33,841 nt of DNA, taken from an uncultured Opitutaceae bacterium (GTDB lineage Bacteria > Verrucomicrobiota > Verrucomicrobiia > Opitutales > Opitutaceae). How positions within the stretch are numbered: position 1 is the stretch's first letter; each line of letters begins with the position of its first letter. The notes beneath the pieces are model-generated. The model was not told the origin of the DNA and ran no database searches. It was given only the letters and a program-made list of their open reading frames with translations. Shown here piece by piece: positions 17,674 through 30,005 of the stretch. The stretch spans positions 1 to 33,841 of the forward strand of contig CAISPT010000305.1 of the NCBI GenBank assembly GCA_903887455.1, read 5' to 3'. The position numbers and the translations under genes are program-made.

Positions 17674-17677
<4 letters not shown>

Positions 17678-18552
17678 TCGTACCGGGCCGAGCGCCCCAG
17701 GTAGTTGAGCGTCCAGATTTCCTTCCAGACCCGGTAGCGGCCCTCGTTGGAGATCTTCCCGTGGTCCTCGCGGACGGCCTGGGGATTGAGGAACCCGAGC
17801 TCGGTGTTCACGCGGTCGAGCTCGCGCTGGGCGTCATTGAGGTCAGCCATGGGCTCGACCATGAAGGGCGTCAGCGCCCGTCCCACCGCGGCGGTCCTCC
17901 TGCGGTGCAGCGCGAGAAGGCGCGGCAGGGAGCGCGTGCAGGGGCGGCGGTCCACGAACCAGTTCTCGGGATAAAACCCCCCGAAGGGGATGTAGAGGTT
18001 GTCGGTCACGTAGCGCGCACCGTCGAGCGTGAGCGAGGTCAGGGAGTAGCAGACATCGATCGCCCCGTTGTTCTGCGGGAGGAAGGTCACCTGCACCCGG
18101 AGCAGCGCGGCCTCGTCCTGGTACACCGAGACCCTCAGGTAGATGTCGCCCCCGACCTCGGCCTTGAGCGCCTGAACCTGGCGGAAGCCCTGGGAGCGGA
18201 GCCACTCGCGGATCTTCAGGAACCTCGGCTGGACCGGCCACTCCTCACCGCTCGTGTTGAGCGCGTAGCGCGGGAAGAGCGGGAACGGGCTCACGCTGAG
18301 CGCCGCGATCGCGAGCCAGTTGTAGAGCGTCTCCACCAGGAACCACAGCAGGAAGCCCGCGACCGCGAGCACCCACATCGGCCGGTCGATCAGGTCAAAG
18401 TCCCGGCACAGCCACGCGCCGACGACCGGGAAAATGATCCACCTTAGCCACCGGTCCGCGATCGCCACGACCGGCGAGGCGAGCCTCTGGTTGATGTGCA
18501 CCAGCGCGAACGAGACGATAATCGCGACGACGATGGCGTAGCGCAGCTCCAT
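17674..18552 (-). CDS. Unrecognised membrane protein
   Basis: I do not recognise this 292-residue protein. Three hydrophobic segments are visible near residues 4-20, 36-52 and 59-86, followed by a soluble region of about 190 residues. That part contains a basic stretch WPVQPRFLKIREWLRSQGF, a beta-rich block (GGDIYLRVSVYQDEAALLRVQVTFL), and a helical, charged end with NDAQRELDRVNTELGF. There are no metal, nucleotide or catalytic motifs I can name. It probably sits in the inner membrane with a cytoplasmic domain. It is immediately downstream of dnaN in transcription direction (27-base gap), so it may be co-transcribed with dnaN. Composition and continuity support a real gene. Confidence 0.8.
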
Positions 18553-18579: not shown

Positions 18580-19704
18580 CTAGCTCTGCCTCATCGGCAT
18601 GATGACGCAGATGAAGTTGTCTAGGGTCTTGAAGACGCCCGGGCTCACCTCGTCCTTAAGCTCGAGGAAGACCTCGTCCTTGGAGAGCGCCCGCAGCGGG
18701 TCGATCACGAAGGCGGGGTTAAAGGCGACCTGGAGGTCCGGGCCGCTGTAGCCTATCGCCATGGACTCGTGGGCCTCGCCGAAGTCCGGGCTCTGGGCCG
18801 TGATCTCCAGCAGGTTGCTCGTGAGCTTCATGCGGACCGAGTTGGACTTCTCGGAGCAGACGAGAGCGGCGCGGTGCACGCACTGCAGCAGGAGCTCGCG
18901 CTCAAGCTTGATCCTCTGGTGCGTCTCCTTGGGAATCACCTGCTGGTAGTTCGGGTAGCTCCCCTCGACGACCTTGGAGTAGAGGTAAACGCTGTCCACG
19001 AGCCCGCTGCCGTCCTTGTCGGTCCCGATCTGGAACGCGCAGCGGCGGTCGTTGAAGTTGATCTTCACCTTGTCCCCCTTGTCGAGGATCCGCGCCAGTT
19101 CGCTCACGGTCTTGGCCGGCAGGATGATGGCGCCCGTGCCCGCGGCCGGGATCACCATCTCCTTGGAGATCAGCGCCAGACGGCGGCCGTCGGTGGCCAC
19201 CAGGGAGAGGCTGCCCTCCTTGAAGTTGAAATAGACGCCGTTGAGCGTGTAGCGGGTCTCGTCCTGCGACTGGGCATAGGCGACACTCTTGAGCATCGCG
19301 GCCAGCTCATCCTGCTGGAGCGTGTGGGCCTTCTCGTCCCCGAACTCGGGCAGGGGAGGGAACTCGTCCTTGGCCATGCCCATGATCCGGAAGGTGGACC
19401 CGCCGGAGGAGATCTTCACCTGGTGGTTCGGCGAGGCGTCCACCGTCACGTCGGCGTTCGGAAGCTCGCGCACGATGCTGGCGAGCCTCTTCACCGGGAG
19501 CGTCACCGACCCCGTCTCCTTGACGTCTGCCTTAATCTTGCAGCGGATCCCGAGGTCCAGGTTCGTGGTCGTGAGCGAAAGCTGGTCCTTCTCGGCCTCG
19601 ATCAGCACGTTGCTGAGGATCGGCATGGTCGCCTTCGAGCCCACGACATTTAGGACCTGGGAGAGGCCATTGGCAAAGTGATCGCGGTTCGTCTTGAATT
19701 TCAT
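18580..19704 (-). CDS. dnaN: DNA polymerase III beta subunit (sliding clamp)
   Basis: This is the ring-shaped processivity clamp (374 residues, standard length), made of three similar domains. The N-terminal [32 protein letters not shown] is the family start. Further signatures are [12 protein letters not shown], the domain-two [28 protein letters not shown], and the C-terminal [13 protein letters not shown]. The last residues form the usual hydrophobic peptide-binding pocket (VIMPMR). The ATG at 19704 matches the family N-terminus. Unlike the common dnaA-dnaN order, the gene upstream on the same strand is pssA and no dnaA is seen. The 263-base upstream spacer contains an unusually AT-rich stretch. 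Confidence 0.98.
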
Positions 19705-19967: not shown

Positions 19968-20861
19968 TCATTGGGGGGCCGCTTTTGGGGACCGTGAGCG
20001 CTTCCAATGCCTGAAAAGGCCGAAGAAGATGTACCCGAGGCAGAGGCTCATGAACGCGACCTCCTTGTAGACGAATACCAGGCCTAGGATCAGCACCAGG
20101 ACGACGAAGGTCCTCAGGCGGGTCTGGGTCTGCAGGTCCACGTTCTTGCCGCTAGGATACCTCACCGTGCTCATCATCAGGAAGGCGATGAGTAGCATGA
20201 GGAACGGGAGCCCGAGGGCGAACTTGTTGAGGGTCTTGTCCGTCTCCGCGAGCTTGAGAAGGAAGAGGACGAGGGACGCGACGGTCATCGCGGCCGCCGG
20301 GACGGGAAGCCCGATGAAATCCTTGCCCGAGTCCTTTGTCCCCCGGTGGAGCAGGGGATTGGTGATCACGTTGAAGCGGGCCAGGCGCATCGCCGCGAAC
20401 AGGAGGTAGAAGAAGCCGACAAACCCGCCGATGTCCCTGAACCACGGAAAACCCTGGGAGGGGGAAAGGATCAGGAAAAACATAAGGAAGGCGGGGGCCA
20501 TCCCGAACGAGACGACGTCGGCCAGGGAGTCGAACTCGGCGCCAAAGAGGGACTCTCGGCCGCCCATCCGGGCGAGCCTTCCGTCCAGCATGTCGAACAC
20601 GGCCGCGCCGAAGATGAAGTAAACGGCGTAGCGGTAATGGTCGGGGGCCGTGGCCGCCAGGTAGAGCCCGTCGTCGGAGGTGCCGGCCAACTTCGCCCGG
20701 ACGCAGCTAAGGACGGCCATGAAGCCGCACAGCAAGTTGCCCGCCGTCATCAGGTTGGGGAGGATGTAGATCCGGCTCGCCTGGGAGACGTTGTACGGGT
20801 CCTCGCGCGACGCCAGGTCGTCGTCTGCCTGCGGGTCGCGCCTGCGCCTTTGGAAGATCAT
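19968..20861 (-). CDS. pssA: CDP-diacylglycerol-serine O-phosphatidyltransferase
   Basis: PssA makes phosphatidylserine from CDP-diacylglycerol and serine, the first step to phosphatidylethanolamine. The CDP-alcohol phosphotransferase motif is complete in residues 90-115: D90, D93-G94, A97-R98, G107, D111 and D115 in MLDGRLARMGG and FGAEFDSLADVVSFG. Several membrane helices surround it. The ATG at 20861 overlaps the stop of the RelE-like gene as ATGA; longer in-frame starts run through that gene in the wrong frame. The protein has 297 residues with a charged N-terminus (FQRRRRDPQADDD). It ends 263 bases before dnaN. The type II (Bacillus-like) PssA family is the best match. Confidence 0.95.
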   Translation of the reverse strand: MIFQRRRRDPQADDDLASREDPYNVSQASRIYILPNLMTAGNLLCGFMAVLSCVRAKLAGTSDDGLYLAATAPDHYRYAVYFIFGAAVFDMLDGRLARMGGRESLFGAEFDSLADVVSFGMAPAFLMFFLILSPSQGFPWFRDIGGFVGFFYLLFAAMRLARFNVITNPLLHRGTKDSGKDFIGLPVPAAAMTVASLVLFLLKLAETDKTLNKFALGLPFLMLLIAFLMMSTVRYPSGKNVDLQTQTRLRTFVVLVLILGLVFVYKEVAFMSLCLGYIFFGLFRHWKRSRSPKAAPQ

Positions 20862-21208
20862 TTGGTGAGGCTTTCCAGGTATTTCCAGAACTTGGAGTGC
20901 TGCTCGACCAGCTGCTGCTCCGACACCGGCAGCCTGTTTCTCAGTAGGAAATCCTCGAGCGAATTCTTGTGGAGGATGTAGATCACGTGGAGCGTGTCCC
21001 CGTCCACGTCGAAGTAGAACCGGTGCTCGCCAGCCCTCAGCCGGAAGAAGGTCTTGCCGTCCCTGTGGAACCGTCCCAGCGGCTCGCGCGGGTGCTCCAA
21101 GTCCGAGGACTTTACGCTGCTGATGGGTTCGACAACCTCGAGCTGCGCCAGCGTCTCGAGCTTGTTCAGTTCCCGCATGGCTTGCTCTGAAAAGGTAACC
21201 TGATACAT
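20858..21208 (-). CDS. RelE/ParE-fold protein translationally coupled to pssA
   Basis: This is a 116-residue protein with the RelE/ParE toxin fold pattern: MYQVTFSEQAMRELNKLETLAQLEVVEPIS, then LGRFHRDGKTFFRLRAGEHRFYFDVDGDTLHVIYILHKNSLEDFL. The RLRAGEHRFYF strand and the IYILHKNSLEDF end are typical of RelE-like RNases, though the longer tail (about 25 residues after DFLL) is less usual. No antitoxin gene adjoins it: upstream is a divergent threonine deaminase, downstream is pssA, whose ATG overlaps its stop. It may have been adopted for a household role linked to membrane lipid synthesis, or act through a distant partner. Toxicity cannot be judged. Confidence 0.75.
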   Translation of the reverse strand: MYQVTFSEQAMRELNKLETLAQLEVVEPISSVKSSDLEHPREPLGRFHRDGKTFFRLRAGEHRFYFDVDGDTLHVIYILHKNSLEDFLLRNRLPVSEQQLVEQHSKFWKYLESLTK

Positions 21209-21225
21209 CGGTTCGTCTGGGGTCT

Positions 21226-21240
21226 AAACCCGTACGGTTT
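21226..21240. promoter_or_regulatory. Near-palindrome in a divergent promoter region
   Basis: AAACCCGTACGGTTT would be a perfect palindrome but for one extra C. It lies in the 59-base spacer between the RelE-like gene (leftward) and the threonine deaminase gene (rightward). An operator, possibly shared, is inferred only from symmetry and position. Confidence 0.3.
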
Positions 21241-21267
21241 ACCCGCAACGCTATTCCATGCAAAACG

Positions 21268-22479
21268 ATGGCAGAAAAGCCCGTAACTCTCGCTGACATC
21301 CGGGCTGCCCGCCGCCGCATAAGGGGCGGGGTCATCCTGACGCCCTGCCCCGAATCGATCCCGCTGAGCGAGATCACCGGGGCCAGGATCGTCTGCAAGC
21401 TGGATAACTTCCAAAGGACGGGCTCATTCAAGGAACGCGGCGCCAGGAACGCGCTCCTAAGGCTGCCCCGTAGCATCCGGGCCCGCGGCGTCGTGGCCGC
21501 CTCGGCCGGCAACCATGCGCTGGGGCTCGCCTACCACGGCCGTCTTCTCGGCATCCCGGTCACGGTCGTGATGCCGGAGTTCGCCCCGCTAATAAAGATC
21601 GCCACCTGCCGGCGGCTCGGGGCCCGGGTGGTCCTCCACGGCGGCGACTTTGCCGAGGCCAGGGCCGAGGCCGAGCGTCTGGTCTCGTCCGAGGGGCTCG
21701 CCTACATCCACGGATTCGACGATCCGGACATCATCGCCGGGCAGGGGACACTGGGCCTAGAGATCCTCGAGCAGGTGCCCGACGTGGACGCGATCCTGTG
21801 CCCGGTCGGGGGCGGCGGGCTCCTGGCGGGCGTGGCGACGGCGGTGAAGGCCCTTCGCCCGAGGGTGAGGGTGATCGCGGTCGAAAGCGTCGCCACCGGC
21901 AACCTCACGGCAGCGCTAAAGGCGGGCCGTCCCGCCCGGGTTTCCCGGCGCGCGACCTTGGCGGACGGCCTGGCGACCCTCTCGGTCGGTGAAAGGGCGT
22001 TTCGGCAGATCCGGGGCCGCGTGGACAGCGTCGTCCGGGTCGAGGAGAAGTGGATCTCGCTGGCGATCCTGAGGATGCTCGAGCTTGAGAAGACGGTGGT
22101 GGAGGGCGCGGCGGCTGTCCCGCTGGCCGCGATGATGTCCGGCGCCGTCCGGGGCCTTCGCGGCAAGCGGGTGGCGCTCGTGGTGTGCGGCGGCAACATC
22201 GACCCGGTGGTCCTGGGTCGGGTGATCGAGAAGGGGCTGGTCCACGACGGCCGACTCACGCGTTTCACGGTCAGGATCTCGGACCGGCCGGGAGGCCTGG
22301 CGGAGCTCTGCCGCGTGATCGCCTCCTGCGGGGCGAGTGTCAACCAGGTCGACCATGACAGGGCCTTCAGTGGGCCGGACGTGACGGCGACGCACGTGGT
22401 CTGCACCGTTGAGACCCGCGACCGGAACCACGCGTCCGAGCTGCGGAGGGCCCTCAAGAAGGCCGGCTTCCACGCGTGA
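21268..22479 (+). CDS. ilvA: Threonine ammonia-lyase with C-terminal ACT domain
   Basis: This is a pyridoxal-phosphate fold-type II dehydratase converting threonine to 2-oxobutanoate and ammonia. The PLP lysine is K55 in TGSFKERGA; ASAGNHALGLAYH binds the substrate, and the phosphate loop GGGGLLAG is at residues 181-188. A single ACT domain occupies about residues 328-403 (RFTVRISDRPGGLAELCRVIA), as in catabolic-length threonine deaminases of about 400 residues, not the two-ACT biosynthetic type. The ATG at 21268 has no clear Shine-Dalgarno sequence. Its TGA overlaps the GTG start of the transporter fusion gene (GTGA). ilvA is the closest symbol; tdcB-like regulation cannot be excluded. Confidence 0.92.
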   Translation: MAEKPVTLADIRAARRRIRGGVILTPCPESIPLSEITGARIVCKLDNFQRTGSFKERGARNALLRLPRSIRARGVVAASAGNHALGLAYHGRLLGIPVTVVMPEFAPLIKIATCRRLGARVVLHGGDFAEARAEAERLVSSEGLAYIHGFDDPDIIAGQGTLGLEILEQVPDVDAILCPVGGGGLLAGVATAVKALRPRVRVIAVESVATGNLTAALKAGRPARVSRRATLADGLATLSVGERAFRQIRGRVDSVVRVEEKWISLAILRMLELEKTVVEGAAAVPLAAMMSGAVRGLRGKRVALVVCGGNIDPVVLGRVIEKGLVHDGRLTRFTVRISDRPGGLAELCRVIASCGASVNQVDHDRAFSGPDVTATHVVCTVETRDRNHASELRRALKKAGFHA

Positions 22480-25754: not shown

Positions 25755-28700
25755 GTGAACCGAATCCTCACTCAAACTCTCGCGCTGATCGCGCTTGTTG
25801 CGGTTCCCTCGCTTTGCTGGGGGGCAACGCAGGCGGCAGACAGGATGGCCTTCCCCGACAGCATCCGGGAGGTTGCGGCCCAGGCGTCGGGAACGAACAC
25901 CGGGGCGGTCATCTCCAGGACGGTGCTGACGCCTGGCGAGAGGTCCTCCCCGATGGCCTTCGAGGTCGGACTGCGCATGAGGAATTTCGACGAAATGCAG
26001 GCGAGGATCGCCCGGGGCGAAAGGATCTCAGACCAGGAGAAGCAGGACAGGTATTATCCGCTCCAGGCGGACCACCAGAGGGTTGTTGAGTGGCTCAAGG
26101 CCCAGGGGCTGGAGGTCACCCGGACGGACCCTAACCACCTTGGGATCTTTGGCCGGGGCTCGGTCGACGCGCTGGCTTCCTCTTTCGGGGTGGCGTTCGC
26201 GAGGGTCCGCAGCCGGGGAGCCGAGTACACCTCCGCCGTCTCGGCACCGAGCCTGCCCTCGGGGATAGCCCCGCTAGTCCTTGGAGTCCACGGGCTTCAG
26301 CCGCATATCCAAAGACATCCGCTGTCTACCCCACGCATCCTGCGTCCTGATGCGCAGCAGGTGAACCTCTCCGGCTACCTTCCCTCGCAGGTGGCGAAGG
26401 CCTATAACGCCGACGGTCTTACGGAGACTGGCGCCGGCCAGACGATTGCGATCTACGGGCTGGCTTACCCTCAGACCAGCGACCTCACGGCGTTCTGGAG
26501 TGCGGCGGGGGTCAGCCAATCGCTCAGCAACGTGACCATGGTCGACGTTGCCGGGGGGCCCTCCGCCTCGCCGAGCGACAGCTCCCTTGAGGAGGCGGCC
26601 CTCGACGTCGAGTGGGCGACGGCGCTTGCACCGGGATGCAAAGTGCGGATCTACGGGGCGAGCGAGACGAACCCCGCGGAGAACGACGAGATCCTCCAGC
26701 AGGTTTACGCGGACCTGCCGAGCCAGCCTGGGATGCGCATCCTTTCGATCTCCGTGGGTGGAAACGAGCTCGACGTTCCTAAGGACTACCTGGTGATCGA
26801 GGCCCAGTACATGGCCAACCTGGCAAGCGCCGGCGTGACGATACTCGTGGCCTCCGGCGACACCGGCGCCACGGCAAACGGTGAGGTGCAGGCGACCTAC
26901 CCGACGTCCGATCCGGACGTGACGGGGGTCGGCGGCACGACGCTCACGCTCGACGCGTCGGGCGCGGTGACAAGCGAGTCCGGCTGGTCGCGGAGCGGCG
27001 GCGGCATTAGCGCGGTCTTCGGCCGGCCTTCCTGGCAGAAGGGGACCGGGGTTCCCTCGGGGTCGATGCGCCTTGTCCCCGACGTCGCGTCCGCGGCGGA
27101 CCCGGCCGAACCAGCGGTGGTTTTTTTCAAGGGGTCGCAGGCGCTCGTTGGAGGGACAAGCTGGTCGGCTCCCACCTGGGCCGCCTTCTGCGCGCTCATC
27201 AACCAGAAGCGCGCCTCGCCTCTTGGGCTCCTTAACCCCGCCGTCTACCCCCTGATCGGAACCTCGGCGCTGCGTGACATCACTACCGGAAACAACGGGG
27301 TCTACAGTGCGGGAGTGGGCTACGACCTGGTGACCGGGGTGGGTGTGCCGGATGTGGCCGCGCTGCTCTCCACAGCGCTTGGCTCAGGCGCCTCCCTCTC
27401 GGTCGCCGGCCAGCTCGGGGACCAGACCGTGACCCTTGGCCAGCCCGCGACGTTCTTCGTCGCGGCAAGCGGTACGCCGCTCACCTACTCGTGGCAGCGC
27501 CTGCCTGCGGGCACCACTGGCTGGGCTGCGCTTTCGGAAGGCGCGACCTACTCGGGCACCGCGACGGCCACCCTGGTCGTGGAAGGGGTCACGTCCCCGA
27601 TGTCCGGCGACCAGTTCAGGTGCGTTGTGTCGTCGGGTTCCTCAAGCGTGACCTCGGCTGCGGAGACCCTGACCGTCAAGGCCGTGGGGGTGACGACCTT
27701 CGCCGGATGGCCGGGCGCTTCAGGGTCGGCAGATGGAGCCGGACGCAGGGCGAGGTTCTCCTATCCCGGGGGCGTGAGGACGGATTCGGCGGGCAACCTC
27801 TTCGTCGCCGACTCGAGCAACTACACGATCCGCAAAATTGCGCCCAACGGCGTCGCGAGCACCGTGGCGGGCACCCCGGGCAAGAGCGGTACAGCCGACG
27901 GACCGGCGTCGTCGGCACAGTTCGCCGGGATCGGCGGCGTCGCCGTGGATTCGGCGGGCAACCTCTTCGTCGCGGATTCTGGCAACTATGCCATCCGGAA
28001 GATCACCCCTGCGGGGGTCGTCTCGACGTTCGCGGGACTGGCGGGCACGCGAGGGGACGTCGACGGCACGGGAACGGCGGCCAGGCTCTACGACCCGCAG
28101 AACCTGGCGATAGACGCATTCGACAACATCTATGTGCCCGACGGGGCCGGCAACGTGGTGCGGAAGATCACGCCCGCGGGCGTCGTGACCACGATCGCGG
28201 GCTCGGGGGCGACAGGATCGGCCGACGGGACCGGGATAGCGGCGCAGTTCAACGATCCCACGGGAATTGCAGTCGACGCGTTCGGGAACCTCTACGTTGC
28301 CGACAACGGCAACAACACCGTGCGCAAGATCCTTCCCGGTGGGATCGTGACCACGCTCGCCGGAACCCCGCAGGTCTCGGGAAGCGCCGACGGAAACGGA
28401 ACCGCGGCGAGGTTCAAAGCACCTGCCGGGGTCGGTGTCGACGGGTCCGGCAACATCTACGTGGCCGATTCCGGAAACAACACGATCCGCGAGATCTCGC
28501 CGTCCGGCTTCGTGACGACGGTGGCTGGGCTCGCAGGCGAATCCGACAGTGTCGATGGCCTGGCCAGCAGCGCCCGGTTTAATTCCCCCGGGGATGTCAC
28601 CATTGACACGAGCGGGGTCGTGTATGTCGCCGACGCCCTCAACAGCACGATTAGGCGCATCATCCCCGGCTCGGACTCGGCCCCGTTCCTCACCACGCAG

Positions 28701-30005
28701 CCCTCGGACTTGTCGGTCAGCCTCGGCGCCAGGGCCGTCCTTTCCTTCGGCTTTCAGGGCACGGCCCCTCTCTCGTTCCAGTGGTACCTTAACAATTCGC
28801 CCATAGCAGGGGCCACGGGGCCCGTCTACGTGGTGGCCCAGGCACAGCAGTCCGATGCAGGCGCCTACACGGTGAAGGTGTCGAACCTGGAAGGCTCCGC
28901 CTCCAGCCAGGCCGCCACGCTCTCCGTCGTGCTCCCCGCCGGCTATCCGGACATCACGTCGCAGCCCTCTGGGGCGGTCATGCCCCCCGGCGGGACGGTC
29001 CCGCTTTCTGTCGCCGTCTCGGGCCCGGGGCCGTTCACCTACCAGTGGCTCTACAACGGATCGCCGATCACAGGTGCGACGGCGTCTACCTACACGGCGG
29101 CGAGGCCCGGAAGCTATTCCGTCTCGATCACCAACGCCGTGGCGACCTCGGTCAGCAGCCCCGCCTTCGTGAGCGCGGGCGCGCGGCTTGTGAACCTCTC
29201 GGCGAGGGCCGAGGTCGGGACCGGCGGGTCCATAACGATCGCTGGGTTCGTGATCGAGGGACCGGCCGGCGTCGCGAAAAGGGTCCTGATCCGCGGCGTG
29301 GGGCCGGCGCTCTCCGCGTTCGGCGTCTCCGGCGTCCTCCAGAATCCCTCGATCGCGCTCTACAACTCGACAACGGGCGCGGCAGTTGCCTCGAACACGG
29401 GATGGGGCTCCGGCCCCGACCCGGCCGGTGTCGCGGCGGCGACGGCCCAGGTGGGAGCCTTCGCGCTCCCCGCGCAGAGCGCCGACAGCGCCCTCCTCGA
29501 GAACCTCACACCCGGACCCTATTCCGTTCAGCTTACCGGAGCCAACGCGACAACCGGCGTCGGGCTCGTCGAGGTCTATGAGACCGACACAGCCGAGCCG
29601 TCGCTGCTCGGCAACATCTCTACGCGGGCCCAGGTCGGCACCTCGGGCAACATCCTGATCTCGGGCTTTGTCGTGACGGGCACCCAGGCGGCGAGGGTCC
29701 TGGTGCGCGCGGTGGGGCCGGGTCTCGCGCAGTTCGGGGTCACCGGCGTCCTCCCTACGCCCGTCCTCACGATCTACGACCATTCCGGCAACCCCGTTGC
29801 GACCAACACGGGATGGCAGAGCGCGGCGAACGCCGCGGATATCGCCAATGTATCAGTCCAGGTCGGGGCCTTCTCCCTCCAGTCGGGCAGCGCCGACAGC
29901 GCCCTCCTCATATCTCTACCACCCGGAAGCTACACGGCGCAGGCGGTGGGAAGCGGCAGCTCGACCGGCATCGCGCTGATCGAGGTCTACCAAGCGGCTC
30001 CCTGA
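25755..30005 (+). CDS. Secreted S53 (sedolisin/kumamolisin) peptidase with Ig-like and NHL repeats
   Basis: This is a 1416-residue exported protein. Residues 1-24 form a signal peptide after a GTG start. Residues 50-190 form the pro-kumamolisin activation domain. The S53 catalytic domain (about 205-545) has E280 and D284 in EEAALDVEW, the oxyanion D369 in ASGDTGA, nucleophile S469 in GGTSWSAP, and calcium ligands D508 and D524. Ig-like sequence follows (about 550-640), then six NHL-type repeats of about 55 residues (645-970; VDxxGNLYVADxxNxxIRKI), two more Ig-like domains (980-1140), and two copies of a beta-rich unit (1146-1275 and 1286-1413). The catalytic set is complete, so an active acid-type protease is likely. 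The long tail suggests surface or polymer binding. Confidence 0.93.
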   Translation: MNRILTQTLALIALVAVPSLCWGATQAADRMAFPDSIREVAAQASGTNTGAVISRTVLTPGERSSPMAFEVGLRMRNFDEMQARIARGERISDQEKQDRYYPLQADHQRVVEWLKAQGLEVTRTDPNHLGIFGRGSVDALASSFGVAFARVRSRGAEYTSAVSAPSLPSGIAPLVLGVHGLQPHIQRHPLSTPRILRPDAQQVNLSGYLPSQVAKAYNADGLTETGAGQTIAIYGLAYPQTSDLTAFWSAAGVSQSLSNVTMVDVAGGPSASPSDSSLEEAALDVEWATALAPGCKVRIYGASETNPAENDEILQQVYADLPSQPGMRILSISVGGNELDVPKDYLVIEAQYMANLASAGVTILVASGDTGATANGEVQATYPTSDPDVTGVGGTTLTLDASGAVTSESGWSRSGGGISAVFGRPSWQKGTGVPSGSMRLVPDVASAADPAEPAVVFFKGSQALVGGTSWSAPTWAAFCALINQKRASPLGLLNPAVYPLIGTSALRDITTGNNGVYSAGVGYDLVTGVGVPDVAALLSTALGSGASLSVAGQLGDQTVTLGQPATFFVAASGTPLTYSWQRLPAGTTGWAALSEGATYSGTATATLVVEGVTSPMSGDQFRCVVSSGSSSVTSAAETLTVKAVGVTTFAGWPGASGSADGAGRRARFSYPGGVRTDSAGNLFVADSSNYTIRKIAPNGVASTVAGTPGKSGTADGPASSAQFAGIGGVAVDSAGNLFVADSGNYAIRKITPAGVVSTFAGLAGTRGDVDGTGTAARLYDPQNLAIDAFDNIYVPDGAGNVVRKITPAGVVTTIAGSGATGSADGTGIAAQFNDPTGIAVDAFGNLYVADNGNNTVRKILPGGIVTTLAGTPQVSGSADGNGTAARFKAPAGVGVDGSGNIYVADSGNNTIREISPSGFVTTVAGLAGESDSVDGLASSARFNSPGDVTIDTSGVVYVADALNSTIRRIIPGSDSAPFLTTQPSDLSVSLGARAVLSFGFQGTAPLSFQWYLNNSPIAGATGPVYVVAQAQQSDAGAYTVKVSNLEGSASSQAATLSVVLPAGYPDITSQPSGAVMPPGGTVPLSVAVSGPGPFTYQWLYNGSPITGATASTYTAARPGSYSVSITNAVATSVSSPAFVSAGARLVNLSARAEVGTGGSITIAGFVIEGPAGVAKRVLIRGVGPALSAFGVSGVLQNPSIALYNSTTGAAVASNTGWGSGPDPAGVAAATAQVGAFALPAQSADSALLENLTPGPYSVQLTGANATTGVGLVEVYETDTAEPSLLGNISTRAQVGTSGNILISGFVVTGTQAARVLVRAVGPGLAQFGVTGVLPTPVLTIYDHSGNPVATNTGWQSAANAADIANVSVQVGAFSLQSGSADSALLISLPPGSYTAQAVGSGSSTGIALIEVYQAAP

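Follow-up and report, generated by a model that had tools for sequence, protein, structure and literature searches.

The window analysed here, a stretch of 33,841 nucleotides from an uncultured Opitutaceae bacterium, carries on its reverse strand a RelE-fold gene followed by pssA and, after pssA, dnaN, with a divergent gene for a PLP-dependent enzyme on the other side (Table 1). The stop codon TGA of the RelE-fold gene (20858–20860) and the start codon ATG of pssA (20859–20861) share the letters ATGA, and the identity of pssA is given by its match to TIGR00473, which scores 114 bits against a cut-off of 107 in the profile search. The preliminary description of this DNA had reported the overlapping ORF, a RelE/ParE fold for its product, a divergent other neighbour and the lack of an adjacent antitoxin, and all of these are borne out, the fold by an AlphaFold2 model together with structural and profile matches. 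No cognate antitoxin ORF lies beside the gene, as only 59 bp are free upstream before the start of the PLP-enzyme gene and pssA occupies the downstream side; additionally, no recurring small gene upstream of the RelE-fold gene appears in the neighbour tables of the order and class loci, which cover ORFs of at least 60 aa. The near-palindrome upstream of the gene, which had been put forward as its operator, does exist, yet shuffling the region gives its equal in 16 of 200 cases, so that it does not exceed chance, and an inverted repeat at its place is kept in only 4 of 9 congeners, so that the operator reading finds no support.

Table 1. Features of the RelE-fold locus and their positions in the window.
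Feature	Position	Strand	Remark
RelE-fold gene, 116 aa	20858..21208	-	class-wide single-copy orthologue, no antitoxin
pssA, CDP-diacylglycerol-serine O-phosphatidyltransferase	19968..20861	-	neighbour translationally coupled via 4-nt ATGA overlap
dnaN, DNA polymerase III sliding clamp	18580..19704	-	third in conserved order relE-pssA-dnaN
Divergent intergenic stretch, 59 bp	21209..21267	.	too short for an antitoxin gene
Near-palindrome, earlier operator candidate	21226..21240	.	unsupported by shuffles or conservation
Divergent PLP-dependent enzyme, threonine dehydratase-like	21268..22479	+	PF00291
Conserved C-terminal tail codons, residues 91-116 (F107, W108)	20861..20938	-	modelled as low-confidence helices

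Three further genes of the window are recorded in passing. A second PLP-dependent, threonine dehydratase-like gene (PF00291; 30012–30968, +) lies 7.5 kb from the one in Table 1. Directly downstream of dnaN, a 292-aa protein without a Pfam match (17674–18552, −) is encoded, which recurs near dnaN in 21 loci of the order. The 1416-aa product of 25755–30005 (+) is presumably a secreted peptidase of the sedolisin type that also contains repeat and Ig-like parts.

The AlphaFold2 model of the RelE-fold protein, built from a 59-row alignment, reaches a pLDDT of 87.4 and a pTM of 0.79. Its best match among solved structures is Thermus thermophilus RelE (2khe; Foldseek E 2.4e-5), to which VIA-align superposes 83 residues with a Z of 10.2 and an rmsd of 2.5. 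In line with this, a profile of 47 class-wide relatives matches Methanocaldococcus jannaschii RelE3 (3bpq) at E 1.3e-6 in hmmsearch. Against the Pfam family ParE_toxin (PF05016) the window protein scores 17 bits, below the gathering cut-off of 23, whereas 29 of the 47 relatives match this family at E 0.1 or better, the best at 2.5e-6; the profile search of the window protein against NCBIfam returned no match. Of the marks of a type II toxin, the protein thus bears the RelE/ParE fold, while an adjacent antitoxin and a PF05016 score above the gathering cut-off are both missing. With the RelE toxins (E. coli RelE, 2khe and 3bpq) the family shares the fold over residues 1–90 and the arginines of the central sheet; unlike them, it has no antitoxin, carries a phenylalanine where they have the C-terminal tyrosine, and differs further in its acidic helices, a conserved tail of about 26 additional residues and a core distribution.

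Across the 47 class-wide rows, F6, R56, R63, Y65, D86, R90 and W108 are invariant, and R58 (44/47) and F107 (46/47) nearly so. By the numbering of E. coli RelE, we take the tyrosine at position 87 and an arginine near position 81 to be the RelE catalytic positions; both were matched via the 3bpq alignment only, as hhalign follows E. coli RelE no further than residue 78. At position 87, which aligns with the C-terminal tyrosine of the RelE toxins, the family has phenylalanine in 46 rows and tryptophan in one, and at position 81, which aligns with an arginine, it has lysine in 22 rows, arginine in 10, glutamine in 8 and other residues in 7. The RelE-type catalytic positions are therefore not retained, which counts against RelE-type chemistry only. 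HRSTVY is the C-terminal end of ordinary RelE toxins from two relatives within the order. The charge of the family differs as well: its median pI is 6.29, with 46 of 63 members below 7 and the highest at 9.55, whereas E. coli RelE and four other toxins lie at 9.7–9.9. Specifically, the helical region 8–38 has a median net charge of −3 in the family (63 rows, one of them at +2 or more), compared with +3 in E. coli RelE and +1 and +3 in two control toxins, and thus lacks the basic character of rRNA-contacting helices. In ribosome-dependent RelE toxins, basic helices contact 16S rRNA, according to passages of PMC7180214, which also describe that RelE-family active sites vary from toxin to toxin, and therefore one lost tyrosine is no proof of lost cleavage. 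Because the tyrosine position is phenylalanine and the helices are acidic, RelE-like cleavage in the ribosomal A site is unlikely for this family, and another RNA chemistry would be possible.

The C-terminal tail, residues 91–116, is strongly conserved and holds F107 and W108; its E102 occurs in every one of the 59 rows of the order and in 30 of the 47 class-wide rows. In two AlphaFold2 runs the tail is modelled as low-confidence helices, with block means of 62–73 and 56–66, and the structural aligner barely covers it. A tail that is conserved yet poorly modelled is what would be expected of a docking peptide, although a packed helix that is badly predicted would give the same picture.

The genome from which the window comes holds one copy of the RelE-fold gene. 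A full-length orthologue is present in 92 of 95 near relatives, at 33–96% identity (the misses are G020, G065 and G085), and the ORF is for this reason not a chance one. In the class sample, a class-wide profile finds the gene in 366 of 384 genomes, in 323 of the 332 that are near-complete and in 169 of 172 genera, nearly always as a single match. In a sample of 387 genomes from the phylum, where matches of full or nearly full length with an E of 1e-20 or better were counted from the rows as positives, the gene occurs in 37/37 genomes of the family, 25/26 from elsewhere in the order and 62/63 from elsewhere in the class. The 261 genomes beyond these counts gave 16 weak matches, the best at E 4.3e-6 and nearly all confined to residues of about 2–82, with the 227 misses not individually named taken as lying outside the class. 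The gene is absent from 18 of the 384 class genomes, nine of them near-complete, and is therefore not strictly indispensable; a renewed search for degenerate copies at a loose threshold, in 21 genomes scored as misses, returned nothing in 15 and partial, generic matches in six. Genomes of 0.9 Mb retain it, both in the order (G066, G084 and G088) and in the class (G127 and G146). In genus g288 (family f121), 6 of 21 sampled genomes are without the gene; most of these are incomplete and one, G506, is 96% complete, which makes the genus a candidate for lineage-specific loss.

Toxins of toxin–antitoxin systems are usually patchy in distribution and mobile. The genome of the window encodes five PF05016 toxins above the cut-off; the surrounding ORFs were tabulated for all five, and three of them, the ParE/RelE-type toxins L173, L175 and L176, each have an antitoxin-like small ORF directly upstream, the antitoxin type of which is our own presumptive assignment. 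Within the same 95 relatives, L175 is matched in 17 and L173 in 22 at E 1e-5, the latter mostly below 40% identity. Plasmid and phage records contain no match to the window protein at E 0.01, and the idea of mobile copies was dropped. A defence system was likewise discarded, as PADLOC gives no match for the window protein and none for L171; one weak match (E 0.021) was returned for L168. Two substitution roles were also considered and dropped: HPF/RaiA is present in 9/9 genomes, as is the omega subunit (rpoZ; six above the cut-off), so that the protein stands in for neither.

Among eight congeners, the dN/dS of the RelE-fold gene is 0.072–0.145, that is, the gene is under strong purifying selection; the corresponding values are 0.059–0.165 for pssA, 0.077–0.154 for the PLP-enzyme gene and 0.015–0.056 for dnaN. 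In all eight, the amino-acid identity of the RelE-fold protein exceeds that of PssA. Over 94 loci, its pairwise distances correlate with those of dnaN at 0.935 and with those of pssA at 0.827, compared with 0.818 between pssA and dnaN, and none of 500 permutations gave so high a correlation. In a tree of 68 rows, the 63 family members stand apart from five toxins (99/95), and the 20 rows that do not belong to the order form one clade (100/100). The toxin outgroup places the root inside Opitutales, with long branches flagged and bootstrap values not settled, and the tree therefore backs one family but not an exact root. Near-universal, single-copy and vertically inherited, the gene belongs to the core of its lineage.

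The linkage of the gene to pssA and dnaN is confined to the order of the window. In Opitutaceae, a same-strand pssA lies within 300 nt in 80/80 loci, 43 of which have a start codon that gives the four-nucleotide overlap. Among 32 loci elsewhere in the order, pssA lies within 300 nt in 19, at 433 nt in one and is missing from 12; in these 12, dnaN follows at 237–586 nt in seven, and neither gene is found in five. In 20 loci from other families of the class, the gene has no pssA and no dnaN close by, among ORFs of at least 60 aa. Its immediate neighbours there are, among others, alanine racemase (confirmed by Pfam in L155 and L166), a class-V aminotransferase (L162 and L169) and a flavoprotein gene (L171). 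The orthologue stands directly after the alanine racemase gene in L153, L155 and L166, so that coupling to a housekeeping enzyme recurs with different partners.

A search for pssA in 19 genomes besides that of the window gave matches at E 1e-20 or better in 12, and none better than 1e-9 in G063, G077, G084, G089, G093, G127 and G146, from which a very divergent pssA could escape the search. All seven carry the RelE-fold gene, and two of them are single-contig genomes of 0.9 Mb; pssA is thus not associated with the gene in every genome that has the gene. Of the two ideas in the preliminary description, that of something other than a standard toxin–antitoxin pair stands, given the missing adjacent antitoxin and the core single-copy distribution. 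The other, a regulatory function linked to the phospholipid enzyme, does not: the pair is conserved throughout Opitutaceae and in most other loci of the order, but it is absent from the 20 loci of other families of the class. As pssA is unlinked outside the order and seven carriers are without a convincing pssA, the tie to phospholipid synthesis comes down to an accident of operon structure at the level of the order, or is a local adaptation at most. The right oddity had been noticed, and the wrong neighbour blamed.

These results bear on several readings of the gene. That its product regulates PssA or phospholipid synthesis draws on the ATGA overlap and on the invariable adjacency of pssA in Opitutaceae; the lack of linkage outside the order and the seven carriers without a convincing pssA, two of them with single-contig genomes of 0.9 Mb, leave this reading highly improbable. 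Just as improbable would be an ordinary type II toxin with its antitoxin gene at another place in the genome, a reading that takes up the RelE fold but has against it the core single-copy spread, so unlike the patchy control toxins with their adjacent antitoxin-like ORFs, as well as the acidic character of the family and the missing plasmid and phage copies.

An active RNase in housekeeping use, which would serve in general mRNA decay or in stress by cutting mRNA, whether or not on the ribosome, and would be kept at a low level with no need of an antitoxin, is unlikely, though less so than the two readings above. The arginines of the groove are retained in all or nearly all members, and the structural matches include Cami1, a CRISPR-associated CARF-RelE ribonuclease (8phb and 8phj) with a Foldseek TMq of 0.58, the highest among the matches listed. 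The RelE domain of Cami1 works without an antitoxin; however, Cami1 is larger and its structure was determined in complex with cA4 and the 70S ribosome, whereas the window protein has a single domain and no defence match. Ribosome-independent RelE-fold RNases are also known from passages of PMC7180214. What weighs against an RNase is the phenylalanine at the tyrosine position, the variable position 81 and the acidic helices 8–38. About equally improbable is a ParE-like protein that modulates gyrase or the replication machinery, which would fit the place of the gene before dnaN in Opitutales: the order relE-pssA-dnaN is conserved there, with dnaN following in place of the missing pssA in 7/32 loci, and ParE toxins, which belong to the Pfam family that ours matches at weak scores, likewise have no RelE catalytic residues (passages of PMC7180214). 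On the other hand, the nearest solved sequences are RelE and not ParE, the window protein falls below the Pfam cut-off and has no ParD partner, and dnaN is not adjacent in the 20 loci of the other families of the class.

A comparable case may exist in another phylum. A YokU-like protein of the “RelE fold family” in the Paenibacillus group, a putative antitoxin, is part of the lineage core in 66/66 according to a passage of PMC9425974; it is likened to our family by description, not by sequence. Among the papers listed by our literature search, none describes the RelE-fold family of the class. The passages of PMC3444138 on toxins, plasmid stabilisation and signature proteins do not mention such a protein, and none of the three toxin–antitoxin components named for Methylacidiphilum in the relevant part of PMC2474590 could be matched to the gene.

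We conclude that the RelE-fold gene very probably encodes a domesticated RelE, a core protein outside any toxin–antitoxin pair. Counterpoints that leave some room for doubt are the lysine or arginine still found at position 81 in 32 of 47 rows, the few basic members and a possible antitoxin elsewhere. With moderate confidence, we favour a fuller account in which a RelE-type toxin, at the class root or earlier, would have parted with both its antitoxin and its toxic chemistry to become a stand-alone, vertically inherited, single-copy core protein. The cutting of mRNA in the ribosomal A site would have gone as the tyrosine position turned to phenylalanine and the rRNA-binding helices became acidic. 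How the protein works can be proposed only tentatively, at somewhat less than an even chance: the kept arginine groove (R56, R58, R63, R49 and R90) may bind RNA or an acidic partner, and the conserved acidic tail with its invariant tryptophan may dock on a second core component, so that the protein would constitutively regulate, or serve as an adaptor in, a basic process, for example RNA turnover. Its link with pssA and dnaN in Opitutales would be no more than co-expression. It is about an even call, in our judgement, whether a single domestication at the class root gave rise to a near-universal and probably fitness-critical housekeeping factor of new activity, kept even in reduced 0.9-Mb genomes, with an arginine groove for RNA or a partner and a lineage-specific, tryptophan-bearing docking tail.

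A RelE-fold gene in the core of a whole class shows how cell physiology can take over such a toxin. The family is an unstudied conserved protein that is likely annotated as a toxin in genomes of the class, and the question of what chromosomal toxin–antitoxin folds are good for becomes directly testable in this class.
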